Origin: Corynebacterium pollutisoli
GTDB lineage: Bacteria; Actinomycetota; Actinomycetes; Mycobacteriales; Mycobacteriaceae
Direction: 5' to 3'
Assembly: GCF_900177745.1 (NCBI RefSeq)
Contig: NZ_FXAR01000001.1
Coordinates: 558,001 to 622,000, forward strand
DNA: 64,000 nucleotides
Below are positions 17,126 through 32,021 of the stretch, one piece after another. Within the stretch, counting starts at the first letter, position 1. Each line of letters starts with the position of its first letter. The notes beneath the pieces are model-generated. The model searched no databases and had not been told where the DNA came from. It was given only the letters and a program-made list of their open reading frames with translations. The position numbers and the translations under genes were made by a program.

Positions 17126-18061
17126 GTGCGGGACTGGAGCGGGGAGATCGAATTCATCAGGATGCGGAGCCGTCGTGCCGGTACCCCGGCATTCCGGCGG
17201 GAGCTGAGGCAGGGGAGGTTCCTACTTCTGTGCCCGGAGATCGCGGTACCTGCCGCCGCGTTCCGGGCATTCCAGACCTGGGACCAGCAGGCGATACGGG
17301 CGTTCGCGGTGGGCCTGGGGAGCCGGACAGCGGTTCTCGTCGGCAAGTCCGCGGCACGGCTGCACGGTATCCCGGTCCTGGGGAACGAGGAGCCGGCCAC
17401 CATCGTGCTCCCCGGCGGCGGGAGACCTCCCGTGAAGCAGTGGCCTGAGGGCGTGCGGTATCGACGCGCGAATCTGCCGCAGGAGCAGGTCACGGAGGTA
17501 CACGGGGTCCGGGTGACCCGGATCATCCGGACGGTGGTGGACATCTGCCGCTACCACGGGCTGGTGGACGGGATCGTGGCGTTCGATCACGTACTCACGC
17601 TGAAGAACATGACCCGGCAACGCGCTGCGGCTCTCCTCGATGACCTGGGCCGGATCCGTGGGTTGAGTGTCGCCCGCCGGGCTCTCGAGCTTGCCGACGC
17701 CCGCGCCGAGAGTCCCCTCGAGTCATGGGCCCGCGCACAGATCCTCGTCGCTGATCTGCCGGAGGTCACGAGCGTGGAGCCCCAGGTGCCCGTCCTCGGT
17801 GGGCGACACAGAGTGGATCTCATGATCAACGGTTTCCAGTTGGTGGAGACCGACGGTGATCTGAAGTACGACGGCTCCACCGGTGTTGCCCCGGCTGAGC
17901 AGATGCGCAAGGACCGGGAGCGCGACCGGGCGCTGACCAATGCGGGGATTCCGCGGCTGCATGTGACGTATGCGGATCTCGCAACCGTCGTCGAGGGGGA
18001 GAGCCGCTTCCTCCGTATGCTGCGTGAGACCCTGCGAGCGCACGCCCGCCGCACCGCCTAA
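17126..18061 (+). CDS. AbiEi-type antitoxin-domain protein with DUF559 nuclease-like C-terminus
   Basis: This 311-residue protein of a large actinobacterial family joins an N-terminal AbiEi-like winged-helix part to a C-terminal DUF559 (PD-(D/E)XK-fold, Vsr-like) domain. The LVGKSAARLHGIPVLG and TRIIRTVVDICRYHG segments and the later HRVDLMINGFQLVETDGDLKY show both parts; Asp in RVDL and Glu/Asp in VETDGD are candidate metal ligands. No AbiEii toxin gene is adjacent. The GTG at 17126 is preferred over upstream ATG 16946 because CATACT, a -10-like box, ends 6 bases before it. It converges with truB, overlapping by 4 bases. Role unproven: defence or DNA metabolism. Confidence 0.75.
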   Translation: MRDWSGEIEFIRMRSRRAGTPAFRRELRQGRFLLLCPEIAVPAAAFRAFQTWDQQAIRAFAVGLGSRTAVLVGKSAARLHGIPVLGNEEPATIVLPGGGRPPVKQWPEGVRYRRANLPQEQVTEVHGVRVTRIIRTVVDICRYHGLVDGIVAFDHVLTLKNMTRQRAAALLDDLGRIRGLSVARRALELADARAESPLESWARAQILVADLPEVTSVEPQVPVLGGRHRVDLMINGFQLVETDGDLKYDGSTGVAPAEQMRKDRERDRALTNAGIPRLHVTYADLATVVEGESRFLRMLRETLRAHARRTA

Positions 18062-18951
18062 AGCGTGTTCGGCCGAGCCACGAACACCGTCGCCAAGCGC
18101 TTGCCCTTCTCCTTGATCAGCGCGATGGAGCGCCCGTCCGGTGCCACCGCCGCGTGCACCCCGACGAGGCCGCGCGGTTCGAGCCACTTGCCCATGGCCA
18201 GGGCCTCGGCCTCCTCCTCCGTCACCTCGAGCACCGGGTAGGAGCGGGCGAGCGCCTCGTCAAGGGTGAGGGACAGCCGCGGCGACTCCTCCAGCTGCTC
18301 GAGCGTCAGCGCGTCGGCAAGCTCGAAGGGCCCCACCGACGTGCGTCGGAGAGCGGTGAGGTGCCCGCCGACGCCCAACGCCTCCCCGAGGTCGCGGGCC
18401 AGGGAGCGGATGTAGGTGCCCGAGGAGCAGTCCACCGACACATCGACGTCGAGGAACTCGCCCTCACGTCGGAACGCCAGCGCCTCGAAGCGGGACACCG
18501 TCACCGGTCGCGCAGGGATCTCCACCTCCTCGCCGGCGCGGACGCGTTCGTGGGCGCGCTTGCCGTCGATCTTGATGGCGCTCACGGCTGCCGGGCGCTG
18601 CATGATGTCGCCGGTGAGGTCGGCCATCGCCGCCAGAACATCCTCCGACGACACAGAAGCCGCCGACGCCCCGGACACGACGTCGCCCTCCGCGTCGTCC
18701 GTCGTGGTCGCGGCACCCAGGCGGATGGTGGCGTCGTACGCCTTGGTGGCCGTCACCAGGTGCGCGAGGAAGCGGGTGCCGCGCTCGATGCCGACGACGA
18801 GCACGCCCGTCGCCATCGGGTCGAGGGTGCCGGCGTGCCCGACGCGGCGGGTGGAGAAGATGCGGCGGAGGCGGGAGACGACGTCGTGGGAGGTCATGCC
18901 CTGCGGCTTGTCCACCACGACGAGTCCGGAACTGGCCAGGGGATCGGTCAT
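18058..18951 (-). CDS. truB: tRNA pseudouridine(55) synthase TruB
   Basis: The 297-residue enzyme converts U55 of tRNA T-arms to pseudouridine. It starts SGLVVVDKPQGMTSHDVV and has the catalytic Asp in RRVGHAGTLDPMATGVL, then the SSGTYIRSLARDLG motif. The C-terminal region (about 225-297) is the actinobacterial TruB extension. The start at 18951 is 29 bases from the divergent ribF start. Sequence and length are ordinary for the family. Confidence 0.96.
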   Translation of the reverse strand: MTDPLASSGLVVVDKPQGMTSHDVVSRLRRIFSTRRVGHAGTLDPMATGVLVVGIERGTRFLAHLVTATKAYDATIRLGAATTTDDAEGDVVSGASAASVSSEDVLAAMADLTGDIMQRPAAVSAIKIDGKRAHERVRAGEEVEIPARPVTVSRFEALAFRREGEFLDVDVSVDCSSGTYIRSLARDLGEALGVGGHLTALRRTSVGPFELADALTLEQLEESPRLSLTLDEALARSYPVLEVTEEEAEALAMGKWLEPRGLVGVHAAVAPDGRSIALIKEKGKRLATVFVARPNTL

Positions 18952-18968
18952 AGGGGAAGTGTATGCCG

Positions 18969-18974
18969 TAGTCT
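18969..18974 (+). promoter_or_regulatory. -10 box of leaderless ribF transcript
   Basis: TAGTCT lies 6 bases before the GTG at 18981, in the 29-base truB-ribF divergent gap. There is no ribosome-binding site, so ribF is probably leaderless. Confidence 0.55.
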
Positions 18975-18980
18975 GAAGCG

Positions 18981-19940
18981 GTGAATGTTTGGCACGGACT
19001 TGGAGACATCCCCGCCGATCTCGAGGTGTCGGTGGTCACCATCGGCGTGTTCGACGGCGTCCATCGCGGCCATCAGCGCCTCATCCAGGAGGCGGTGCGG
19101 CAGGCGCACATCCGCAGTGTGCCGGCGGTGATGGTGACGTTCGATCCGCATCCGATCAGGGTGTTTCTGCCTGATCGTGCGCCGGTGCTGCTCAATTCGG
19201 TGGAGGAGCGGATCGCCCGGGCGGGTGAGCTGGGGATCGACGCCGTCCTCATCATCGACTTCAACGTGGAGCTCGCGGGTCAGACCCCGGACGAGTACTT
19301 CCAGACCCTGCTGGTCGACGGTCTCAAGGCGCAGTGCGTGGTCGTCGGGCAGAACTTCACGTTCGGACGCGACGCCGCCGGCACCGCCGACACGATGCGT
19401 GAGCGCGGGATGCGGCACGGTGTGGACGTGGAGATCGTCGATCTGCTGCACGATGAGGGCATGCGTATCTGCTCCTCGACGATCCGCAGTTTCCTCGCGG
19501 AGCAGGATGTGGCGCGTGCGGAGTGGGCCCTGGGGCGCCCGTTCACGGTGCGCGGGGAGATCATGCGCGGTGCCGGTCGGGGCGGCCGGGAGCTGGGTTT
19601 TCCCACCGCCAACCAGTACTTCGACGACTCCGTGGCGCTGCCGGCGGACGGAGTGTACGCGGGCTGGTTCACGGTGGTCAGCGACGGTCCGATTGACGGC
19701 GACATGGAGCCGGGGGAGAGGTACCCGGCGGCGATCTCCGTGGGCAAGAACCCCACGTTCGGGGACAAGGAGCGTAGCGTCGAGTCCTTCATCCTCGACC
19801 GTGACGCCGACCTCTACGGCCACGTTGCTGAGGTCGCCTTCGTCGAGCACGTGCGTGACATGGTGAAGTTCGATTCGGTGGATGCACTGCTCACCGCCAT
19901 CCGCAATGACGTCAGCCGCGTCCGGGAGATCCTCGGGTGA
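18981..19940 (+). CDS. ribF: Bifunctional riboflavin kinase/FAD synthetase
   Basis: The 319-residue RibF makes FMN from riboflavin and FAD from FMN. The N-terminal adenylyltransferase domain (1-180) has VFDGVHRGHQRL and CSSTIRSFL. The C-terminal kinase domain (about 185-315) has GRGGRELGFPTAN and the GVYAGW segment. The GTG start follows a -10 box by 6 bases. The last codons overlap the nucleoside hydrolase start by 4 bases. Confidence 0.96.
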   Translation: MNVWHGLGDIPADLEVSVVTIGVFDGVHRGHQRLIQEAVRQAHIRSVPAVMVTFDPHPIRVFLPDRAPVLLNSVEERIARAGELGIDAVLIIDFNVELAGQTPDEYFQTLLVDGLKAQCVVVGQNFTFGRDAAGTADTMRERGMRHGVDVEIVDLLHDEGMRICSSTIRSFLAEQDVARAEWALGRPFTVRGEIMRGAGRGGRELGFPTANQYFDDSVALPADGVYAGWFTVVSDGPIDGDMEPGERYPAAISVGKNPTFGDKERSVESFILDRDADLYGHVAEVAFVEHVRDMVKFDSVDALLTAIRNDVSRVREILG

Positions 19941-20854
19941 AACTCATCCTCGACCTCGACACGGGTATCGACGACGCCTTCGCCCTCGCCTATGCCCTCG
20001 CCTCCCCCGAGGTCGAGCTCATCGGCGTGACCGGCACCTACGGCAACGTCACGGTCGCGGACGGCGTCCGCAACACCCTCGCCCTCCTCGAGCTCTTCGG
20101 CCGCCCGGATGTCCCCGTGTACCCCGGCCCGCAGCGGGAGGATTTCGAGGTCGCGGAGATCTCCGCGTTCATCCACGGTGCCAACGGTCTCGGCGAGGTG
20201 GAACTCCCCGCACCGGCGACCGGGCCCGCCGGCTCCGCCGTCGAGTTACTTATCGACGCCGTCCATACCCACCCTGACCTCGTCATCGTCCCGACGGGGC
20301 CGTCGACGACCATTGCGGCGGCGCTGGACGACGACCACTTCGCCGAGCACGCGCGCATCGTCATGATGGGCGGTGCGCTCACCGTGCCCGGCAACGTGCG
20401 CCCGTGGGCGGAGGCGAACGTGTGGCAGGACCCGGAGGCCACGAACGAGGTGTTCCGCCGCGCGCGCCACGTCACGATGATCGGCCTCGACGTCACCCTC
20501 AAGACCCTGCTCACCCGCACCGAGACCGCGCAATGGCGCGCCCTCGGCACGCCCGGTGGCACGATGCTTGCCGACGCCGCCGACCACTACATCGGTGCCT
20601 ACGCCACCACCTCCCCGCACCTGGGCGGCTGCGGCCTGCACGACCCGCTGGCGGTGGCCGTGGCCGTCGACCCCTCGCTCGTCGAGTGCTTGGCGCTTCC
20701 CATGCAGGTCGACGTGGCTGGGGAGACCCGCGGACGTACCATCGGCGACCTCTCGCGACAGGGCCCGCTGGTCAATGTCGCCGTCGGCGTGGACGTGGCA
20801 AAATTCCTCGGCGAATTCATGACCCGATTGACTAGGCTGGCCGCAAACACCTGA
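19937..20854 (+). CDS. Nucleoside hydrolase (IUNH family)
   Basis: The 305-residue enzyme hydrolyses the N-glycosidic bond of ribonucleosides for salvage. The Ca-binding N-terminal motif is DLDTGIDDAFALAYAL, a close variant of DTDxGxDDAxAL, and the C-terminal HDPLAVAVAVDP supplies the catalytic His-Asp pair. The MMGGALTVPGNV segment is also typical. The start overlaps the ribF stop (GTGA), an unusual pairing with flavin synthesis. Purine versus pyrimidine preference cannot be read from the sequence. Confidence 0.9.
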   Translation: MKLILDLDTGIDDAFALAYALASPEVELIGVTGTYGNVTVADGVRNTLALLELFGRPDVPVYPGPQREDFEVAEISAFIHGANGLGEVELPAPATGPAGSAVELLIDAVHTHPDLVIVPTGPSTTIAAALDDDHFAEHARIVMMGGALTVPGNVRPWAEANVWQDPEATNEVFRRARHVTMIGLDVTLKTLLTRTETAQWRALGTPGGTMLADAADHYIGAYATTSPHLGGCGLHDPLAVAVAVDPSLVECLALPMQVDVAGETRGRTIGDLSRQGPLVNVAVGVDVAKFLGEFMTRLTRLAANT

Positions 20855-20874
20855 CCTGTCTCCGGAGGGCCTGA

Positions 20875-21597
20875 ATGGAACTGCGTAACGGCATCGCCGC
20901 CTTCGACCCCGTCACCCTGCGCATCGCCGCCGAACAGCTGCCGCTGGTGCAGATTCCAGAGGTTCTCGACGCCGAGATGCCCGAGCACCTCGTGGCCCTG
21001 GCCGAGGTGGAGGTCACGCCCTTCAACGTCGCCGCGAAAATCGACACCGGCCAACTCACCTGGGACGTCGACGCCGAACTCAAGCCCTTCACCGCCTACG
21101 CAGGCGGACAGGCCTCCGGCGTGCAGCTGGCTGGGGCGCGCGTCGCCGAACTGGAGGACGCGGTGGTCGCGCGAGTGAACATCAAACTCGAAAACCGCAA
21201 GCTCCGCGCCTGGTTCGCCGAACTGCCCTCGGAGGTGTCGGAGCTCGACGCCTTCGACCTCGTCGCGGATGTCCGCCGCTGGATGAAGGACTTCTCCACC
21301 GAGGACAAGAAGGTCGACACCCTCATCGTCCCGCAGCAGGACGTGGACTACGAAGCCTTCGTGAAAGGTCTGGACAGGTCCACTCGGCAGTCGATCAAGG
21401 CCGTGATCGATGAAAAGGGCGCCCACGTGGTTGCCGAGACCGTCATTCTCGGTAGCCTACCGAGCTGGGGCTCGCCGAAGGAAGTCATTCTCGGGGAGCG
21501 TGGCCCCGTGCTGTTCTGGTTCAGCGAAGGCAACGAGAACAAGGCCCTGCCGTTTGCTGTGGTGTATACCGAAGCGGGGGCTTGGGTGGGGGCGTAG
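20875..21597 (+). CDS. Hypothetical protein
   Basis: The 240-residue soluble protein was not recognised. It has no signal peptide or membrane segment and is acidic overall. It repeats short beta-like patterns (VEVTPFNVAAKIDTGQLTW, VVARVNIKLENRKLRAWF) and ends with a strand-rich half (GPVLFWFSEGNENKALPFAV). GGAGGG precedes the ATG at 20875. It follows the nucleoside hydrolase by 20 bases and could be co-transcribed. It marks the left border of an A/T-richer accessory stretch. Confidence 0.7.
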   Translation: MELRNGIAAFDPVTLRIAAEQLPLVQIPEVLDAEMPEHLVALAEVEVTPFNVAAKIDTGQLTWDVDAELKPFTAYAGGQASGVQLAGARVAELEDAVVARVNIKLENRKLRAWFAELPSEVSELDAFDLVADVRRWMKDFSTEDKKVDTLIVPQQDVDYEAFVKGLDRSTRQSIKAVIDEKGAHVVAETVILGSLPSWGSPKEVILGERGPVLFWFSEGNENKALPFAVVYTEAGAWVGA

Positions 21598-21812
21598 GGC
21601 TATGCCCCGTGAAGCTACTCAGCATCTCCATCGACGTCCGTTTAGTAGCTGCCTGGCTGTGCCACAAGGTGATACCAGATTTATCGCATAGGAGAAGGTC
21701 GCGGTCCTCGTTGTCGGTTTTGAGGCTCACGACTGCTTAGCGGGAGTCCAGAACCTCCAGAAATGGGCCCGAACTATTCTTAGCTCCAACAGTTCTACAA
21801 GAGGAGCAAAGA
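21598..21812. other. A/T-richer intergenic region
   Basis: 215 bases between two unknown genes. Base composition drops visibly below the flanking genes. AGAGGAG near 21800 is the probable ribosome-binding site for the TTG-started gene downstream. No convincing hairpin or promoter was recognised. Confidence 0.4.
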
Positions 21813-22724
21813 TTGTCTTCGATAAAGAAGCAGCCTGCCGCGTCCCTGCTTACCAATCCTCAGCGTCTGGCGGGTAAGCGGGAGCTTTACAGTGATCTCT
21901 ACAGAGCCGGTGTACGTCGGCAAGTGCCCCAGGCGGTGATCTACCTCCTACCGAACACAGTGCCAATGGAGATCGACGACGTGGAGTCGTTGTCACAAGG
22001 ATCCGAGGTAGTCCGCGATTTGCTGGATGAGGACGTCCCGCAGGCCCTGGAAGTCACCCTGAATCAGAGAGGAACCGACCGGTTACACAAGTTGCTGCGT
22101 TCTCGTAGACCCTTGCCAGAACGGGCAGTGATCGCCTCCGCAGCGATGTTCTTGGCTTTGATGGTTCTTCCTTTGACGCTGTTTGCGCAATCGTGGAGCG
22201 GGATCGCAGTGAATCTGACCATCATCGCGGTGGGGTTCGTAGTCCGGCGGATGAGTATCAACCACACGGTCGCTGGGATTGATGTGGATGGTGAAGACTA
22301 CCCTTCTGAAGGGCTGAACGGTGTCACTCATCCAGCCTTTGGTGACATCATGATCAAGCTGGCAGAGCTCGCCGAGCTTCAGAACGTATCGGTTCTTGAG
22401 CACCCCTTCTTGAGCGACCTGCAGACCGTGGCCGATTTCGTGCGTGACACTAACGCCGGTGATATTTCCGACCGAGAGAAGGCCGCCATAAGCGAAGAAG
22501 CAACGAGTCTCATCGACATCATTGCGACGAGAATCAACGATGAGATCCAGTCGATCAATGCCATACGGGAGAGCACAGAACGTGAGTTGAGTGCCTTAGG
22601 GGCAGACTCAGCCAAGGAACTGCTGGCAGCCGGCGATCAGCAGATCAACGATGTCAAGGTCGCCGGGATTCGGGATAGAGCCGACATTCTTCGGAAGCTA
22701 ATAGAAGAAGACAAGACGTTCTAG
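21813..22724 (+). CDS. Unknown membrane protein with coiled-coil tail
   Basis: The 303-residue protein was not recognised. Residues 1-100 are soluble and charged, two hydrophobic segments lie at about 105-125 and 129-146, and the remainder is helical and acidic with coiled-coil character (about 175-300). Both ends are therefore likely cytoplasmic, around a membrane hairpin. The TTG at 21813 is supported by GAGGAG 6 bases upstream; no better start is in frame. Codon use is less GC-biased than neighbours, suggesting acquisition. Its 3' end overlaps the 3' end of a decayed minus-strand gene by 27 bases. Confidence 0.72.
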   Translation: MSSIKKQPAASLLTNPQRLAGKRELYSDLYRAGVRRQVPQAVIYLLPNTVPMEIDDVESLSQGSEVVRDLLDEDVPQALEVTLNQRGTDRLHKLLRSRRPLPERAVIASAAMFLALMVLPLTLFAQSWSGIAVNLTIIAVGFVVRRMSINHTVAGIDVDGEDYPSEGLNGVTHPAFGDIMIKLAELAELQNVSVLEHPFLSDLQTVADFVRDTNAGDISDREKAAISEEATSLIDIIATRINDEIQSINAIRESTERELSALGADSAKELLAAGDQQINDVKVAGIRDRADILRKLIEEDKTF

Positions 22725-23138
22725 CTCCTCGTCCACTTCCCTTAGGAATCCCTGTTCTGGCCGTGTTGAGGGATCGGTTACGAACGACTGAGTCGTGTCG
22801 ATGCCGGGGAGTCGGTCGATTCCGATCGCCCAGATCCGTGAATCACGGAGTCTATGTTGGGCCTCTTGAAGACCTCGCGAACCTCATCTTTGTATCCCTG
22901 GGTGAGGTCGGGGAGGTTCTCTGCCTACTTCGCGGCATCACGGTGTGTTTTGCCGCGAACCTGTACTGAGAAGTGTCGTAGACGGGATTGGCTACAGTAC
23001 GTTCGAGTTCTTCAGGGAGGATCAGATCGGGCTTGGGCGTGGGCGCAGCTGAGCCTTTGCAATTGCGAGAGCTCGGTGTCCAATCGGAGCCAGCTCCGCC
23101 TCGAGTAGGGCCAGCACAATGATCGGGAGGATCACCAC
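22698..23138 (-). pseudogene. Decayed small membrane-protein gene (multiple frameshifts)
   Basis: Joining frames on the minus strand gives protein-like sequence. A GTG at 23138 with AAGGAG 6 bases upstream begins a hydrophobic segment (VVILPIIVLALLEAEL). After a frameshift near 23040 comes PKPDLILPEELERTVANPVY; after another near 22945 comes AENLPDLTQGYKDEVREVF with one in-frame TAG; after a third near 22860 comes IWAIGIDRLPGIDTTQSF, ending LEELERLVFFY-like at the stop 22698-22700. At least three frameshifts and one stop indicate a dead gene of roughly 145 codons: one N-terminal membrane anchor plus a soluble domain. Family unknown. It converges on the gene at 21813. Confidence 0.6.
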
Positions 23139-23273
23139 GACGTACTCCTTTGGGTGATTAGGGGCCACACAGTTTTTCTAAGATGGCTCAGATGAACTTC
23201 GGATTTGGTTGGTACATAGAGTCCTCTCCAACCTAGGATTTGCAACGACTTGAGTCGGCGGCCGTTCAGGGAT

Positions 23274-23303
23274 TTGGTCCCCACCCACCTCACCCGGTAA
23301 GAT
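23274..23303 (+). promoter_or_regulatory. Predicted rpsO promoter
   Basis: TTGGTC (23274-23279) and TAAGAT (23298-23303) are 18 bases apart, leaving a leader of roughly 105 bases before rpsO. The leader has GC-rich inverted segments (around 23325-23375) that could be the autoregulatory target of S15, but I cannot fold it confidently. Between 23139 and 23270 nothing else is recognised. Confidence 0.5.
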
Positions 23304-23417
23304 CCTCCAAGGCTTCATGCGACTGCGGTCCACAGCAGTTGCGCCACCAGGCCTAGGGCGTGAAACCCCAGGCCAGGGACATTTCATGTGGACTGAAACA
23401 ACGAAGAGAGATTCATC

Positions 23418-23687
23418 ATGGCTCTGACTTCTGAGCAGAAGAAGAACATCCTGGGCGAGTACGGCCTGCACGAGACCGACACCGGTTCCCCGGAGGCTCA
23501 GGTCGCACTGCTGACCAACCGCATCAACAACCTGACCGAGCACCTCAAGTTCCACAAGCACGACCACCACTCCCGTCGTGGCCTGCTGCTGCTCGTCGGT
23601 CGTCGTCGCGGCCTGCTGAAGTACCTGGCCGACAACAACATCGACCGCTACCGTGACCTGATCGCCCGCCTGGGCCTGCGTCGCTAA
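23418..23687 (+). CDS. rpsO: 30S ribosomal protein S15
   Basis: The 89-residue S15 binds the central domain of 16S rRNA and is the standard length. [22 protein letters not shown] and [21 protein letters not shown] are the conserved rRNA-binding segments. AGAGAG precedes the ATG. GC content returns to the genomic norm here, inside the A/T-richer region. It is followed by a terminator and, unusually, an accessory segment separates it from pnp. Confidence 0.98.
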
Positions 23688-23707
23688 GCGAACTCAGATC
23701 TTCCGCG

Positions 23708-23738
23708 AACCCGCTCTCCGCTCGGAGGGCGGGTTTCG
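23708..23738 (+). terminator. rpsO terminator, copy 1
   Basis: AACCCGCTCTCCG...CGGAGGGCGGGTTTCG forms a stable stem with a tiny loop 20 bases after rpsO. An almost identical 31-base copy (one mismatch) lies at 24587-24617 before pnp. Confidence 0.8.
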
Positions 23739-23745
23739 TGCATGC

Positions 23746-24090
23746 TCACGCTGAAGGCGGATTTTCGCGGCCCACGGTGTCGAGCCAGTAATTGATGCGT
23801 TTTCGCAAGTGTCCGCCTAACTCGTCTGCGATTCTTTTTGCCGCTCGAGTAGCATCGGACGGCAGAGAATGGCCTGCAAGACATGCTCCTTGAAGAGCGT
23901 GCTCAACGGCCCAGTGTTCCTCGCCGACAGCGCACTCACCGGCGATGACGCCTCTCCATTCACCAGTGATGTGCGGCCAGATGTTCTCTATGACCAACTG
24001 AGCGTCGGGGTCGCCCAAGCCACGGAGCCTGATTCTGGGCAACAGATCTTCTTTGTTTGTCCCATTGCTACGCGATGTCGGTGAGGTCAT
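23746..24090 (-). CDS. Hypothetical 114-residue protein
   Basis: A plausible small gene on the minus strand within the segment bounded by duplicated rpsO terminators. The translation looks protein-like: Gly/Arg-rich start, then DAQLVIENIWPHITGEWRGV, a Glu/His/Cys-rich middle, and a helical end with RAAKRIADELGGHLRKRIN. GGAG lies 5 bases before the ATG at 24090. No family was recognised. It ends 8 bases from the rpsO terminator, which could also stop its transcript. Composition suggests foreign origin. It may be decaying like its neighbours. Confidence 0.5.
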   Translation of the reverse strand: MTSPTSRSNGTNKEDLLPRIRLRGLGDPDAQLVIENIWPHITGEWRGVIAGECAVGEEHWAVEHALQGACLAGHSLPSDATRAAKRIADELGGHLRKRINYWLDTVGRENPPSA

Positions 24091-24291
24091 CTGGGCTCCA
24101 CTGGTGGTCGGGGGGTGCTCGCTACGGGTAGCACCATTTTACGGCGGGCGCTGGGTGAGGGCAGACCCGTCGGCACGGGCGAGACCCTCACTGCGGCGGC
24201 GGAGCTTCGGGTTACTCGTAGTCCAAAGTTCATGGACAGGAAAGGGCTGGGTGCCGGCCGGTTTGGAGTTAGTGGTTCCGCCGTCGGCACT

Positions 24292-24510
24292 CTAGTTGGT
24301 AGGAGTGGTGGAGCCGGGCACGTAGTGCCGCGCCACTCGGCCTCGCCCCGTATGTGCATCGGCGTTATCCAGGAAGCCATGGATGCGAGCATTCACTACC
24401 AGGGTCAATTCTGCGGTATCTCCCAGCCCCACGTCTACCAAGCCCTGTAGTCCGCACCTTCATTGTCCGCAATGGAGGGGATTGCTGGAGGCGAGCTCTG
24501 ACTGTTTCAT
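24292..24510 (-). pseudogene. Gene remnant with in-frame stop
   Basis: Reading the minus strand from the ATG at 24510 gives a short segment ([16 protein letters not shown]), an in-frame TGA (24460-24462), then 55 more protein-like codons including GLVDVGLGDTAELTLVVNAR, IHGFLDNADAHTGRGRVA and RHYVPGSTT before TAG at 24292-24294. The run downstream of the stop looks coding (balanced residues, third-position GC). I interpret it as the tail of a broken gene; the family is unknown and the 5' limit uncertain. The rest of 24091-24586 holds nothing else convincing. Confidence 0.4.
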
Positions 24511-24586
24511 GTGCCGCTTGATGAAGGGCACCGTGGTATTCCGCTCGTCCCCCTCAGGCCAGGCGTCAGCCCGCGGGTAACACCCA

Positions 24587-24617
24587 AACCCGCTCTCCGT
24601 TCGGAGGGCGGGTTTCG
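24587..24617 (+). repeat. Second copy of the rpsO terminator
   Basis: Thirty of 31 bases match 23708-23738 in direct orientation. The hairpin lies just before the pnp promoter and encloses the 848-base accessory segment between rpsO and pnp. It may still terminate transcription coming from rpsO. Confidence 0.8.
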
Positions 24618-24620
24618 GCA

Positions 24621-24650
24621 TTCCGAAACCTGTACCACACCTGGTAGAAT
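24621..24650 (+). promoter_or_regulatory. Predicted pnp promoter
   Basis: TTCCGA (24621-24626) and TAGAAT (24645-24650) are 18 bases apart directly after the second terminator copy, leaving about 67 bases of leader before pnp. The -10 is close to consensus. Confidence 0.55.
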
Positions 24651-24723
24651 GTCCCCCGTTGTAAAGGACATTTTTTCGACGGCACCGATGATCGTCGATG
24701 AGACTCATCTTCCAAGGAGATAC

Positions 24724-26967
24724 ATGAGCAACCCCGTACAGATTCACGTCGACGAGGACTACGGCGTCACCGAGGCGACCGTCGAGATCGACAACGGTGA
24801 TTTCGGTACCCGTGAGATCCGTTTCGAGACCGGTCAGCTGGCCCGCCAGGCCGGCGGTTCCGTGACCACCTACCTCGACGACGAGAACATGCTGCTGGCC
24901 ACGGTCACCGCGTCCAACCAGCCGCGCGAGGGCTTCGACTTCTTCCCGCTGACCGTCGATGTGGAGGAGCGGATGTACGCCGCCGGCCGCATCCCGGGTT
25001 CCTTCTTCCGTCGTGAGGGCCGTCCCTCCACCGACGCGATCCTGGCCTGCCGCCTCATCGACCGCCCGCTGCGTCCGACCTTCGTCAAGGGTCTGCGCAA
25101 CGAGGTCCAGGTCGTCATCACCGTCATGTCGCAGGTCCCGGAGGACTACTACGACGTTGTCGCCATCAACGGTGCCTCCGCTGCCACCCAGCTGTCCGGG
25201 CTGCCGGTGTCCGGCGCCGTCGGTGGTGTGCGCATCGCACTGATCGCCGATGACAAGCACCCGAAGGGCCAGTGGGTTGCCTTCCCGAACCAGGCACAGC
25301 GCGAGCAGTGCGTGTTCGAGATGGTCGTCGCCGGCCGCCTCGTTGAGCGCAAGGGCCGTCGCAAGGGCGAGGACGTCGCCATCATGATGGTCGAGGCCGG
25401 CGCCGGCGCCAACGTCCTCGAGCTGGTCAAGGGCGGTGCCCCGGCCCCGACCGAGGACACCGTGTCCGAGGGCCTCGAGGCCGCCAAGCCGTTCATCTCC
25501 CTCCTGTGCAAGGCGCAGGCCGGGCTGGCCGAGCAGGCCGCCAAGGAGCGCCAGGAGTTCCCGGTGTTCCCGGCGTACGGCGATAAGGTCTACGCGGCCG
25601 TCGAGAAGAAGGCCTCGAAGAAGCTTGCCGAGATCATGACCATCAAGGGCAAGCACGAGCGCGAGGACGCCGCTAACGACTACATGGTCGAGATCGAGGA
25701 GTCCCTCGTCGGTTCCTTCGCCGACAACCCGGACGCCGCCAAGGAGGTCCGCGCCGCGTACAACTCGCTGATGAAGCAGATCGTACGCCAGAAGATCCTC
25801 ACCGAGGGCTTCCGCATCGACGGCCGCGGTGTCACCGACATCCGTGACCTCGGCGTCGAGGTCGAGCTCATCCCGCGCGCCCACGGCTCCGCCCTCTTCG
25901 AGCGTGGCGAGACCCAGATCCTCGGTGTCACCACCCTGGACATGCTCAAGATGGAGCAGCAGATCGACTCGCTGTCCCCGGAGAAGTCCAAGCGCTACAT
26001 CCACCACTACAACTTCCCGCCGTACTCCACCGGTGAGACCGGCCGCGTCGGTTCCCCGAAGCGCCGCGAGATCGGCCACGGTGCCCTCGCCGAGCGCGCC
26101 CTCGAGCCGGTCATCCCGTCCCGCGAGGAGTTCCCGTACACCATCCGTCAGGTCTCCGAGGCCCTGGGCTCCAACGGTTCCACCTCCATGGGTTCCGTCT
26201 GCGCGTCCACCCTCTCCCTGTACAACGCCGGCGTTCCGCTCAAGGCCCCGGTCGCGGGTATCGCCATGGGCCTGGTCTCCGATGAGGTCGACGGTGAGAC
26301 CAAGTACGTCGCGCTGACCGACATCCTCGGCGCCGAAGACGCCTTCGGCGACATGGACTTCAAGGTCGCCGGCACCCCGGAGTTCATCACCGCCCTGCAG
26401 CTGGACACCAAGCTCGACGGCATCCCGTCCCAGGTGCTTGCCGACGCCCTCGCCCAGGCCCGCGAGGCACGCCTCACGATCCTCGACACCATGTCCGAGG
26501 TCATCGACGGCCCCGACGAGATGAGCAAGCTCGCCCCGAAGATCACCACCGTCAAGGTGCCGATCAACAAGATCGGTGAGCTCATCGGCCCCAAGGGCAA
26601 GACCATCAACTCCATCACCGAGGAGACCGGCGCCGACGTCTCCATCGAGGACGACGGCACCGTCTACGTGTCCGCCGCCTCCGGTGAGGCAGCCGATGCC
26701 GCGATCGAGAAGATCAACTCCATCGCCAACCCGCAGCTGCCGAAGGTCGGCGAGCGTTACCTGGGTACTGTCGTCAAGACCGTCGCCTTCGGTGCCTTCG
26801 TCTCCCTGACCCCGGGTCGCGACGGCCTGATCCACATCTCGAACCTCGGTGGCGACGAGCGCATCGAGAAGGTCGAGGACGTCATCATCGTCGGTGACAA
26901 GGTCCAGGTCGAGATCGCCGACATCGACAACCGCGGCAAGATCTCCCTCGTCCCCGTCGAGGGCTAA
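24724..26967 (+). CDS. pnp: Polyribonucleotide nucleotidyltransferase
   Basis: The 747-residue PNPase degrades RNA 3'-5' using phosphate and belongs to the RNA-decay machinery. It has two RNase PH domains (first about 10-220, second about 345-560, with [35 protein letters not shown] split here by convention) joined by a helical linker, then a KH domain ([20 protein letters not shown]) and an S1 domain (about 675-747). AAGGAG precedes the ATG at 24724, where the N-terminus matches the family; longer in-frame extension has no support. Its own promoter follows a duplicated terminator. Confidence 0.97.
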
Positions 26968-26988
26968 ACGCCTCGGTTCGCCGCTGAC

Positions 26989-27024
26989 GCGCCCCTGTCC
27001 ACCCTGCCGGGTGGGCGGGGGCGC
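26989..27024 (+). terminator. pnp terminator
   Basis: GCGCCCC and CCACCC pair with GGGTGG and GGGGGCGC around a short loop, starting 21 bases after the pnp stop. No long T-run follows, as is common in high-GC genomes. Confidence 0.65.
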
Positions 27025-27045
27025 TTCGCGTTGGCGGACTCGGGC

Positions 27046-27849
27046 TCAGAAACACTGCAGCACGAGGTGCGCGTTCTCCCACCTCCCGTCGCGGATGTCC
27101 TCGCGGCGCATCCAGACGTAGAGTCAGCCGTCATCACCCCAGGACCAGTCCCCGTCGTCGTGGGAGGCGAACTGGGCGAGCAGCACCCACCCGCCGGAAT
27201 CGTCTGAAACCTCCATGCCGTGGCGGTACTCCAGACCCCGGGACAGGGCGGAGGATTTCGCGGCCATGTCGTCCTCCTGGATCACGGAGGGCCCCCCGCC
27301 GATGTGGTGGTGCTCGGTGGCGTCCGGGGTGTCGTCGGACCAGGCGAAGTAGGCGTCCTCGTCCTCGGACCAATCGACGGCGGAGGAGTTATCGGACGGC
27401 ACGGTCACCGCGGACACCGGGGTCAGGCGGTGGGCGGGCAGCGGGGACGGACCCTCGCGCTGCTCGACGCCGGGCGCAGCCGCGTAGACCAGGCGGAAGC
27501 CATCCCGGTCGGCCAGCTGGTAACCCTACGGCTGCTCGATGGAGTCGTAGAAGAAGTAGAGATGCCCGGAGGTGGGCAGCTCCAGATCGGTGAGCCCGAC
27601 GATCTTGGTGAGGTTGACCTGGGCGAGGAACGGCAGCGGCTCACCGGTGCCGGCGTGCGCCGGCCACTCGATCTCCGCCGGCAGGTCGGGGTGGCCGCCG
27701 AAGCGGGACTGGCCGGGCTCGGTGGGGACACCGGGCGTGGCGGCGAGACGCGCGGTGGGGCGGGCCAGGGTGAGGAACTGCTCCTGGATCGTCGGCTTCA
27801 GGTCCGAGGCGGCGAGAGAGGCACGGAGTGCATCGTGGGTGGCGAACAA
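27046..27849 (-). pseudogene. DUF1963 (YwqG-like) gene inactivated by two nonsense codons
   Basis: The frame aligns throughout with the intact paralogue at 27904-28617: SRFGGHPDLP, PFLAQVNL, SGHLYFFYD, GFRLVYA and the C-terminal LQCF. Two in-frame stops interrupt it. TAG at 27526-27528 replaces the Trp of the paralogue's QPWGY (TGG to TAG), and TGA at 27124-27126 replaces the Arg of HGRLYV (CGA to TGA). Without them it would encode about 265 residues. The start is uncertain (TTG 27849 or a little upstream). It lies directly downstream of its paralogue and is not in a foreign composition stretch, so the decay is recent. Confidence 0.85.
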
Positions 27850-27903
27850 GACTGGATCGTAGGCCGTATCCGGCTGGTGTGCCCGACAGCCGGCCTGCAA
27901 CCT

Positions 27904-28617
27904 TCAGTAGCACTGCAGCTCCAGGCGCGCGTCCCGCCAGCGACGCTGACGCAGCGCCGTCCGAGAGATGGTGACGTAAAGCCGCCCGTGGTCACCCCAC
28001 TGCCACTGGCCCTTCCCACCGGAGGTGAACTCCGCGAGCAGCACCCGGCCGAAGCCCTCCACCGGCCCCTGGATGGGCACCGGGTGTCCGCCGAGGTGGT
28101 GGACCCCGTCGGTGTCGGGCGCCCGGTAGTGCCAGCCGGAGTAGCGCTCGTCCCCCTGCCAGCTGCCGGGCATGGACAACACGGCCTCCGGAAGGAGCCG
28201 GTGGGCGGGCAACACGTGGGTGCCTGCCGGCGCCTCGCGGGGGACCAGGCCGTGGTCGCGGGCGTAGAGCAGGCGGAAGCCCTCCTTGTGGAAGTCCTCG
28301 TAGCCCCAGGGCTGGCCTTCGGTGTCGTAGAAGAAGTACAGGTGCCCGGAGCGGGGCAGGTCGAGCCCGCTCATCCCGCGGACGTCCGCGAGGTTGATCT
28401 GCGCGAGGAAGGGCATGCGGATGTCGTAGCGGGGGATCCACGGCCAGTCCAGGTGCGGCGGCAGATCGGGATGGCCGCCGAAGCGGGACTCACCGACCCG
28501 CTGCGGGAGGCCGGCCTCCGGTCGCAGCAGGGCGGCGGGGCGGGCGAGATCGGTGAGGGCGGCGGGCAGGGCGGCGGTGGTCAGGGAGCGGGCGAGGGCG
28601 TCCTTGGTGGGGAACAT
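27904..28617 (-). CDS. DUF1963 family protein (YwqG-like)
   Basis: The 237-residue protein has the DUF1963/YwqG core: ESRFGGHPDLPPHLDWP, PFLAQINLADV, SGHLYFFYDTEGQPWGY, LLAEFTSGGKGQWQWGDHG and a C-terminal LQCY. The family is common in bacteria and has no firmly assigned role. The ATG at 28617 is selected because TATGGT lies 6 bases upstream, giving a leaderless start; in-frame GTGs at 28623 and 28635 fall inside the promoter. A tandem copy downstream is dead. Confidence 0.85.
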   Translation of the reverse strand: MFPTKDALARSLTTAALPAALTDLARPAALLRPEAGLPQRVGESRFGGHPDLPPHLDWPWIPRYDIRMPFLAQINLADVRGMSGLDLPRSGHLYFFYDTEGQPWGYEDFHKEGFRLLYARDHGLVPREAPAGTHVLPAHRLLPEAVLSMPGSWQGDERYSGWHYRAPDTDGVHHLGGHPVPIQGPVEGFGRVLLAEFTSGGKGQWQWGDHGRLYVTISRTALRQRRWRDARLELQCY

Positions 28618-28674
28618 GGCCACACCATAGAACACGTGTCCTACATGTGGTCTGACCTGCGGATATGTGGGCTG

Positions 28675-29364
28675 CTACTTGTGCTGGATGTCGACCACCA
28701 CGCGCAGCGGGTTCTGCAGCAGCGTCACCGAGTAGGGCAGCTCCGCCTCCAGTCCGATGTAGGTGAGCGTGTGGCCCTCGAAGGTGCCGGTGTTGTAGAC
28801 CTCCTCGACCACGCCGGTGCCGGGGTACGGCCCCGTGGCCGCGCCCTCGTGGTCGTGCTCGAAGGGGTAGGTGGTGCCGGTGATGTTCACCATGAGGAAG
28901 GCCTCGCCGGCGACGTCGACGTCGAACCCGGAGCCCTGCTGGTAGGGCTGGTCGATGTACTGGGTGATCCAGCCGGGCTCGCCGTCACCGATGAGGTCGT
29001 AGACCACGCGGGTGAAGTTCTCGTGGCGGCCCACGCGGATCCCGGTGACCAGCGGCGGGGGATCCACCCACACCGGTTCGCGATTCTCTGAGGTGACAGC
29101 CGGGGTGCCCAGCGGGCGGTCCGGGGTGGGGTTGTCCGCGGCCGGGGTCGTGGTGGTGGTCGCCACCGTGGTGGTGGGGTCGGTGTCGGTCTCGGCGGGT
29201 GTGGTCGTGGTGGTCGTGCCCACCGGCGCGGCCGTGGACGTCACGGTCAGCGGCGGGTTGGTCGTGGTGGTACCGCCATCGGTGGTGCCCTCGGTGTTGC
29301 AGGCGGTGAGTAGCAGCGCCGTGACGGTGACGGCGGGGATGAGGGGGCGTCGATAAGCGGTCAT
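28675..29364 (-). CDS. AMIN-like domain lipoprotein (paralogue 1)
   Basis: The 229-residue product has a lipoprotein signal ending LLLTACN (Cys at about 22), a Thr/Pro-rich wall-spanning linker (about 25-90), and a C-terminal AMIN-like beta domain including TGIRVGRHENFTRVVYDLIGD, with YSVTLLQNPLRVVVDIQHK at the end. It should be anchored outside the cytoplasmic membrane, and AMIN-like domains bind cell-wall components. It shares the layout GRHE/GEHE...D..G.GEPGW...Y...P.QQ with the next gene, indicating tandem duplication. The partner or enzyme it serves is unknown. Confidence 0.82.
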   Translation of the reverse strand: MTAYRRPLIPAVTVTALLLTACNTEGTTDGGTTTTNPPLTVTSTAAPVGTTTTTTPAETDTDPTTTVATTTTTPAADNPTPDRPLGTPAVTSENREPVWVDPPPLVTGIRVGRHENFTRVVYDLIGDGEPGWITQYIDQPYQQGSGFDVDVAGEAFLMVNITGTTYPFEHDHEGAATGPYPGTGVVEEVYNTGTFEGHTLTYIGLEAELPYSVTLLQNPLRVVVDIQHK

Positions 29365-29417
29365 AGTCCCACCTTAAAGGTCATAACCGGGAACTGTCAC
29401 CGGTTATGGCCGAATCG

Positions 29418-30070
29418 TTAGGGGTCTGTTGGTTCTTTGATAAGGTCGATGACCAGCCGTTTCGGGTCCTCCAGGAAGGTCACTGAGTACGGGTACTCCT
29501 GATCGAGGCCGATGACGAACTCGGAGTGGGCCTCGAAGAGGCTCGCGAAGGTGACCCCGTTGATCACCCCGCCGCCCGGATGCGGGCCGTGGGCCAGCAG
29601 ACCGGAGTCGTCGCCCATGGGGTAGGGCGTGCCGGTGATGATGACGTGCAGCGCGGTCGCGCCCTCGTAGTCGACCGGGAACCCCAAGGCCTGCTGCAGC
29701 GGTTTTTCGGTGTACTCGATGAACCATCCGGGCTCACCGTTGCCCGCCAGGTCGAAGACGAGGCGGTCGAAACGCTCGTGCTCGCCGATGCGGTAGCCGG
29801 TGACGTGGAGCTCTCCGGTGAGCGAGTCCCAGTTCTCCTGGCGCGCGGTGTCGGGTGTGCCCAGCGGCGCGAGAGCGGTCGCAGAGGTTTCGGTGGCGGT
29901 CGCGGTGATGGTGGTGGACGGGGTCGTCGACGGTGTCGTCGGTGCGGGCGCAGGCGGCTCAGGCGTGGTCGAAGTGGTCGTCACGGTCGGCTCCGGCGCA
30001 GTCGGCTCCGGCGTCTCGGCAGGCTGCGCGCAGCCCACGAGCAGCAGCGGCAGGGTTACCAGCAGGCGTT

Positions 30071-30074
<4 letters not shown>
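29418..30074 (-). CDS. AMIN-like domain lipoprotein (paralogue 2)
   Basis: The 218-residue protein has signal MKRLLVTLPLLLVGCAQ with lipobox Cys at 15, a Pro/Thr-rich linker (20-75) and an AMIN-like domain (GYRIGEHERFDRLVFDLAG ... FLEDPKRLVIDLI). It is homologous to the neighbour at 28675-29364. The start codon overlaps the VOC gene stop by 4 bases (ATGA), so the two are coupled. Likely periplasmic or wall-associated; no catalytic residues are expected in this fold. Confidence 0.82.
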
Positions 30075-31262
<1,188 letters not shown>

Positions 31263-32021
31263 ATGGCCAAGCCTGTCGAGCTGGACGTCCAGCTCATCGC
31301 CGCCACCACGTTCACCCCGCCCTCCGGGGTCGACTGGGACGTCGACGTTTCCGCCACCGGCGCCGAGGCCCTCGTCGAGTTCGCCGGCCGCGCCTGCTAC
31401 GAGACCTTCGACAAGCCCAACCCGCGTACCGCCGCCAACGACGCCTACCTGCGCCACATCATGGAGGTCGGCCACACCGCGCTCCTCGAGCACGCCACCG
31501 CCACCCTCTACATCCGCGGCATCTCCCGGTCCGCCACCCACGAGCTGGTGCGCCACCGCCACTTCAGTTTCTCGCAGCTGAGCCAGCGATTCGTCCACAC
31601 CGACGAAGCCGAGGTCGTCCTGCCGACCCTCATCGCCGAGGACCCCGAGCTCGCCCAGATGATGCTCCGCGCCGTCGACGAGTCCCGCTTCATCTACCAG
31701 GAGCTTCTCGACGCCCTCGAGGACAAGCTCTCCGACGAGCCCAACGCCCTGCTGCGCAAGAAGCAGGCCCGCCAGGCCGCCCGCGCGGTGCTGCCCAACG
31801 CCACCGAGTCCCGCATCGTCGTCACCGGCAACTTCCGGGCGTGGCGGCACTTCATCGGGGCGCGCGCGACGGAGCACGCCGACGTCGAGATCCGCGCCCT
31901 CGCCGTGGCCTGTCTGCGCCTGCTGCAGCAGCAGTCTCCCGTGCTCTTCTCCGATTTCCAGATCTCCACCCTGTCCGACGGCACGGAAATGGCCGTCAGT
32001 CCCTACGCCACGGACTTCTGA
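31263..32021 (+). CDS. thyX: FAD-dependent thymidylate synthase
   Basis: The 252-residue flavin-dependent enzyme makes dTMP from dUMP. The ThyX motif [14 protein letters not shown] is intact (RHRxxSxxxxSxRF). The [19 protein letters not shown] and [12 protein letters not shown]-like ([14 protein letters not shown]) segments fit the family. Its ATG abuts the dapB stop, and dapA follows after 50 bases, so dapB-thyX-dapA are probably one unit. Confidence 0.97.

Follow-up and report, generated by a model that had tools for sequence, protein, structure and literature searches.

In Corynebacterium pollutisoli (genome of 2.54 Mb in 15 contigs), the genes rpsO and pnp are separated by a gap of 1036 bp, in which 848 bp are enclosed by two nearly identical copies of a 31-nucleotide hairpin sequence. 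With a probability that we put at roughly 0.5, the 879-bp unit made up of one 31-nt repeat and these 848 bp is a phage-derived orphan immunity cassette, which would have inserted at the rpsO terminator and duplicated it. The only recognisable gene of the insert belongs to a rare protein family whose other members are found either behind phage head proteins or, like this one, between direct repeats.

Layout of the insert and its repeats

All coordinates without a locus name refer to the window, i.e. the whole stretch of 64,000 nucleotides that was analysed. The gene for ribosomal protein S15, rpsO (89 aa; 23418–23687, plus strand), was taken from the list of open reading frames (ORFs) and is 98% and 93% identical in the related genomes G019 and G200, respectively. 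It is followed by the first repeat (23708–23738, plus strand), an attL-like copy assigned as rpsO terminator hairpin from its fold and from the one homologous hairpin of these two sister species. The largest ORF of the insert is a 114-aa orphan gene (23746–24090, minus strand), whose stop codon lies 7 nt from this repeat and whose placement in a putative immunity protein family draws on its relatives, on codon-position differences and on GC content at third positions (GC3). The remainder of the insert (24091–24586, no strand assigned) contains no recognisable gene. Its eight stop-free frames have no Pfam match (E<=10) and no PHROGs match below E 0.19, and comparison with the phage-linked loci described below gave weak matches only (E 0.012 or higher). 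The second hairpin copy (24587–24617, plus strand, attR-like), identified by repeat identity and fold, is followed by the pnp upstream region (24638–24723, plus strand), where the blastn blocks of G019 and G200 begin again at 24638, and by pnp itself (polynucleotide phosphorylase; 24724–26967, plus strand), 94–95% identical to its counterparts in G019 and G200. The two repeats agree at 30 of 31 positions and start 879 nt apart, exactly as described in a first-pass annotation of this DNA; the small minus-strand gene that it listed is also present, and the eight frames gave no sign of the broken gene that it had placed in the same insert. A 101-codon minus-strand frame (24087–24392) overlaps the start of the small gene in an ATGA, as in coupled genes; it has no family match and may be due to chance. 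A search of Rfam over 18000–32000 returned no match at the gathering threshold.

On the plus strand, the two copies fold into hairpins of -28.4 and -26.9 kcal/mol, and in neither case was any of 200 shuffles as good. The first-pass annotation had called each copy a complete terminator. Neither is followed by a long T run and a simple terminator scan calls neither, and the label rests on position and hairpin. Allowing up to three mismatches, the 31-nt sequence occurs at two places in the genome, both at this insert, which rules out a common terminator family spread over the genome. A scan for such repeats (31 nt, at most three mismatches, 300–1500 bp apart) found none in 80 actinobacterial loci (677,440 bp) and, at the same setting, none in 80 other Corynebacterium rpsO–pnp loci (240,080 bp), but these 160 control loci (0.92 Mb) are mostly housekeeping neighbourhoods and not mobile regions, in which the rate of direct repeats may be higher. 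The same setting recovers the repeats of genomes G226 and G139 discussed below. The window has two other places with direct repeats this long (31 nt or more), one at 27541–28491 (780 bp spacing; 27541–27711 in the scan), which falls in tandem related ORFs as judged by eye, and one at 237–1474 (1049 bp; 237–425 in the scan).

The rpsO–pnp gap in related species

Taking one genome per species, the gap was measured in 134 Corynebacterium genomes, from 139 loci examined among 242 genomes of the genus, and a terminator was scored as duplicated at an ungapped direct-repeat score of at least 15–16. A duplicated terminator was present in one of the 134 gaps, namely that of the window, and the comparison brought up no relative in which two terminators stand without an insert. 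Gaps for which rpsO was absent from the fetched stretch were left out (L011, L026, L081, L083 and L300), G035 (L011) being measured as L179. A first set of 146 gaps had contained seven entries of the locus itself and many from other genera; from outside the genus, L103 (17 matches in 23 nt) and L141 (tandem, 46 nt) were set aside before counting, as were the shorter repeats of L238, L242 and L247 (17–25 nt, 21 nt apart). The median gap is 212 bp (87 of the measured gaps).

The nearest species by pnp are G200 (95%) and G019 (94%); in a tree of 14 species built from pnp, the two form a group with G000 next to it. In both of these species, rpsO is followed by one homologous hairpin with 2–3 differences of 28 and an identical stem. 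The empty site with a single terminator that the first-pass annotation had proposed to look for was thus recovered in part: the single terminator is there, but the gap of both species holds another frame (144 codons, minus strand, no Pfam match, unrelated to the insert) and is not a clean empty site. Alignment to these sisters breaks off at 23735, still within the last part of the first hairpin, and starts again at 24638, short matches of the second hairpin being the sole similarity in between; the comparison gave no information on the ancestral flank of each terminator copy. Further off, G087 has a short gap of 192 bp. In other relatives the gap contains a CAAX-protease-like gene (Rce1-like by Pfam in L224, the one tested, and by eye in the others), a decayed stretch or almost nothing, and in more distant ones an Nramp, phosphate transporter or baeRF-type gene. 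The presence of unlike genes in these gaps indicates that this site gains different genes repeatedly, many of them read towards rpsO, without repeats of this kind, and the state just before insertion is therefore not fixed.

The insert was also searched for elsewhere, as had been suggested, and no convincing match was obtained in 241 other genomes of the genus. The best match (E 3.9e-6) extends over 49 bp, and matches in 21 other genomes are stretches of 23–50 bp. Of 17 loci looked at, several show an apparent gatB gene, none resembles a relative of the insert, and one match was not reproduced. Plasmids and phages gave no match. Just upstream of rpsO, alignment to the closest species is likewise lost (21592–23266). 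A gene of 303 aa located there (21813–22724) has no family match above cut-off, and in G019 the matching place seems, by eye, to be occupied by a type I restriction-modification system. In this clade, rpsO appears to have an accessory site on either side.

A rare family with and without a toxin partner

The small gene has a GC content of 0.57, compared with 0.68 for the window, and a GC3 of 0.59, compared with 0.92 for pnp, which suggests a foreign origin. Its length is uninformative, since 398 of 1000 shuffles hold an ORF as long. Aligned with its relative in G226 over 78 codons, it differs at 24 first, 23 second and 47 third positions (chi-square p 0.003), with an NG86 dN of 0.38 and a saturated dS of 3.95; judged by this distribution of differences, 23746–24090 is a real gene. 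A single-sequence search (E<=0.01) gave matches, mostly weak ones, in 9 of 242 genus genomes, and a five-member profile (E<=0.001) gave six matches in 4 of 242, of which five had built the profile and that of G117 was new. In an order-wide sample of 397 genomes the gene was found in its own genome only. These counts rule out that it is conserved between rpsO and pnp, and the gene is not conserved at this site in other species. One viral contig was matched by the profile and none by the window protein searched singly, and the family amounts to seven proteins in all from genus genomes and viral contigs. The fold predicted from a two-row alignment (pLDDT 80) consists of helices only and has no match at E<=0.001 in PDB and BFVD. 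Similarly, the protein matched nothing in PADLOC, NCBIfam or Pfam (Pfam at E<=1), and a PDB sequence search with the family returned only unrelated proteins at E 0.55–0.84.

Three members of the family have phage contexts: a prophage in G139 (L176), the viral contig (L186) and a remnant in G117 (L190). In all three, the family gene stands directly behind a head-type gene with an EndoU-like tail. The head-type genes match VG15 below cut-off in each case, and the one tested against PHROGs (L176) matches the head maturation protease phrog_1522 (E 9.8e-37); no MuF model was matched. A scaffold-type gene follows the family gene in 3 of 3 contexts (DUF4355 over the cut-off in L176, by eye in the others), and a major head gene comes next in two (phrog_212 for L176, by eye for L186). 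The EndoU-like tail corresponds to the last 136 residues or so of the head proteins. Whole proteins match EndoU at E 0.0072–0.059 and the tail alone at a best E of 2.6e-4 (3 of 3 at E<=1), all scores being under the curated Pfam cut-off of 25.3 bits. A PDB sequence search with the tails gave nothing at E<=1, and the predicted fold (pLDDT 36) is not a usable model. In G117, the pair (L190:1459–3243) consists of a short EndoU-tailed head gene (369 aa) and its immunity-family neighbour; judged by eye, it adjoins a frame resembling a transposase and a C-terminal fragment resembling an integrase.

Phage head-protein toxins, EndoU tails among them, are described as preceding small presumed immunity genes (PMC5576092), and a listing of immunity families links the mostly helical Imm28 to EndoU (PMC3482391). 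We infer that the present family consists of immunity proteins, a membership that lay beyond the view of the first-pass annotation. The window gene has no toxin partner: its own genome gave no EndoU match (E<=1) and the insert remainder no family match. Since the EndoU model scores this subfamily so low, such a match in the same genome could have been missed.

Four members, from three genomes, have no adjacent toxin, namely that of the window, one in G226 and two in G139, and all four lie between direct repeats of 31–49 nt. These repeats are the rpsO terminator in the window, the 3' end of tRNA-Val in G226 and a repeat array in G139. In G226, an intact tRNA-Val (2732–2807 of L174; ARAGORN) is followed by 202 nt, the minus-strand family gene, about 430 bp without recognisable gene and the repeat, in which the final 49 nt of the tRNA recur 961 bp from the first copy with 94% identity. 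Window and G226 therefore have a common order, i.e. host gene, repeat, minus-strand gene, 430–500 bp and repeat, and their inserts have no convincing similarity outside the gene. Each tRNA copy has a hairpin behind it; the two fold at -23.4 and -31.7 kcal/mol, which was matched by 1 and by 0 of 200 shuffles, respectively. A hairpin also directly follows a similar tRNA in 14 of 16 other genomes (0 of 200 shuffles), the exceptions being G003 and G039 and some of the 16 tRNAs having been taken as the same locus on sequence matches, and this suggests that one of the two G226 hairpins is probably native.

In G139, the two toxin-less family genes lie between 35-nt repeats in an array at L175:3409–5055 and onward (G139:C1:1627421–1631385). 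There are three exact copies of the 35-nt sequence and, within 4 kb, five of its 23-nt end; the repeat is present in no other of the 242 genus genomes (at most two mismatches). It is an imperfect palindrome; a strong hairpin was ruled out, as 59, 13 and 7 of 200 shuffles were as good for the three copies. One of the two units also holds a piece of a scaffold gene, and the array holds a piece matching the end of an EndoU-like tail (by eye). This locus looks like a small cassette array.

Origin of the insert and comparison with known systems

The simplest account of the order common to window and G226 is the integration of a small circle at a site that circle and chromosome have in common, which would produce attL and attR. 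The terminator copies would then be the left and right junctions of the cassette, the terminator having been duplicated by att-like integration of the tyrosine-recombinase type. Direct repeats of the target sequence do stand at both ends of the insert, as expected of an attL/attR element. Searches for exact copies of the terminator repeat or the tRNA repeat in viral contigs found none. A genome-wide search with PF00589 found no recombinase in the insert; it returned three proteins, all outside it, which look like XerD, XerC and a class 1 integron integrase. The enzyme would thus have been lost or have acted in trans. The att-like duplication proposed by the first-pass annotation is favoured by an insert that is specific to this species among the genomes compared, by a terminator doubled in one of 134 gaps of the genus and by the relative at tRNA-Val in G226, and is weakened by the missing recombinase. 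As judged by eye, the genome carries a gene like that of a class 1 integron integrase at L195 (G000:C5 around 185463–186065), together with an aadA-like gene and an IS6100-like transposase. After insertion, the first copy would still terminate rpsO and may do so for the small gene as well, which is transcribed convergently. Because rpsO keeps this copy and pnp keeps its upstream region, the insertion should cost the host little. The small protein, for its part, would bind and block an EndoU-type RNase from other strains or phages.

Several observations count against reading the insert as a cassette of this kind. Besides the lack of a recombinase, the sub-cut-off EndoU scores and the lack of an empty site in the closest species, they include the window protein itself, which was never seen beside a toxin and which, at 49% identity to the G226 member, is only 21–26% identical to the three toxin-linked members. 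In addition, G226 has hairpins behind both tRNA copies, and the family gene is 202 nt from the first repeat there, versus 7 nt in the window.

The best surviving alternative, although in our view unlikely, is that the insert is what remains of a larger prophage or integrative element at the terminator, in which an internal deletion spared one edge gene between attL and attR. Such elements have been described as entering at tRNA ends and at the 3' ends of ribosomal protein genes (PMC4701971), the insert remainder has no gene left, and an integrase-like fragment adjoins the toxin–immunity remnant of G117. Decay of this sort sits poorly with a similar size and order at two unrelated sites, and neither the window insert nor that of G226 has a clear phage remnant when compared with the three phage-linked loci. 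Rather improbable, in turn, is an origin without any site-specific recombinase, with DNA bearing the hairpin recombining across this short shared stretch in a Campbell-type or illegitimate event, or with the terminator having been included in a tandem duplication. The identity of the hairpin stem in the sister species means that DNA from a relative would share it, and the gain of unrelated genes in this gap without such repeats shows that other routes exist; taken alone, this route leaves unexplained the direct repeats around toxin-less members at unrelated sites. That two terminators evolved independently, the second ending a lost gene, is highly improbable: GC-rich terminators do resemble one another, but here 30 of 31 positions agree, loop and 3' flank included, with no other match in the genome (at most three mismatches) and none of the 133 other measured gaps showing a duplication.

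Integration as a small immunity cassette remains our preferred reading for the window. Its extension to the genus, i.e. that sub-kilobase, single-gene immunity cassettes of Corynebacterium are excised and reinserted between terminator-like or tRNA-end sites by a trans-acting recombinase and spread protection against EndoU toxins independently of their source phages, is distinctly doubtful. Like integron gene cassettes, the unit comprises a single gene with its stop codon near a palindromic site. On inspection, the terminator repeat and the G139 repeat lack the attC end boxes that we take to be present in integron cassettes. The intact tRNA-Val of G226, together with a copy of its last 49 nt, is a usual arrangement of an attachment site.

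MuF-type toxins of temperate phages (PMC5576092) form the C-terminal domain of a head protein, behind which stands a small ORF regarded as the immunity gene, and three members of the family are placed in this way; unlike these, the heads described here match VG15 (below cut-off) and phrog_1522 (one tested), and the window copy has no toxin. Immunity genes without toxins are known from polyimmunity loci, several of which neighbour XerC/D-type recombinases (PMC3482391), and from the AID-1 and rAID arrays of Bacteroidales, rAID being associated with a tyrosine recombinase and intergenic motifs (PMC12247911). The toxin-less, immunity-like genes of Corynebacterium resemble both, and the sequence common to several G139 units recalls the intergenic motifs of rAID; the window differs in having one gene, an insert without recombinase, and another taxon and toxin class. 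Streptococcal integrative and conjugative elements (ICEs) target the 3' ends of tRNA genes and of the ribosomal protein genes rpsI, rpmG and rplL (PMC4701971). As in those elements, the end of a conserved gene serves as target, is repeated at both junctions and leaves the host gene intact, but the present unit has 0.9 kb, one gene and no integrase, and its target is a terminator hairpin and not a coding 3' end. Among the matches listed from open-licence papers, none concerned a repeat-bounded unit that holds a single gene of a phage-toxin immunity family and lacks a recombinase. Toxin-less immunity genes have thus already been described in gut Bacteroidales arrays and polyimmunity loci. The present examples come from a Gram-positive genus, three genomes of which carry toxin-less members of a single rare family, and the units of the window and G226 are under 1 kb and bounded, at unrelated sites, by copies of their own target. 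If the preferred reading is true, an immunity gene can spread singly and by itself, and further cases could then be sought by a sequence signature, namely two copies of a terminator or tRNA end with a small gene in between.
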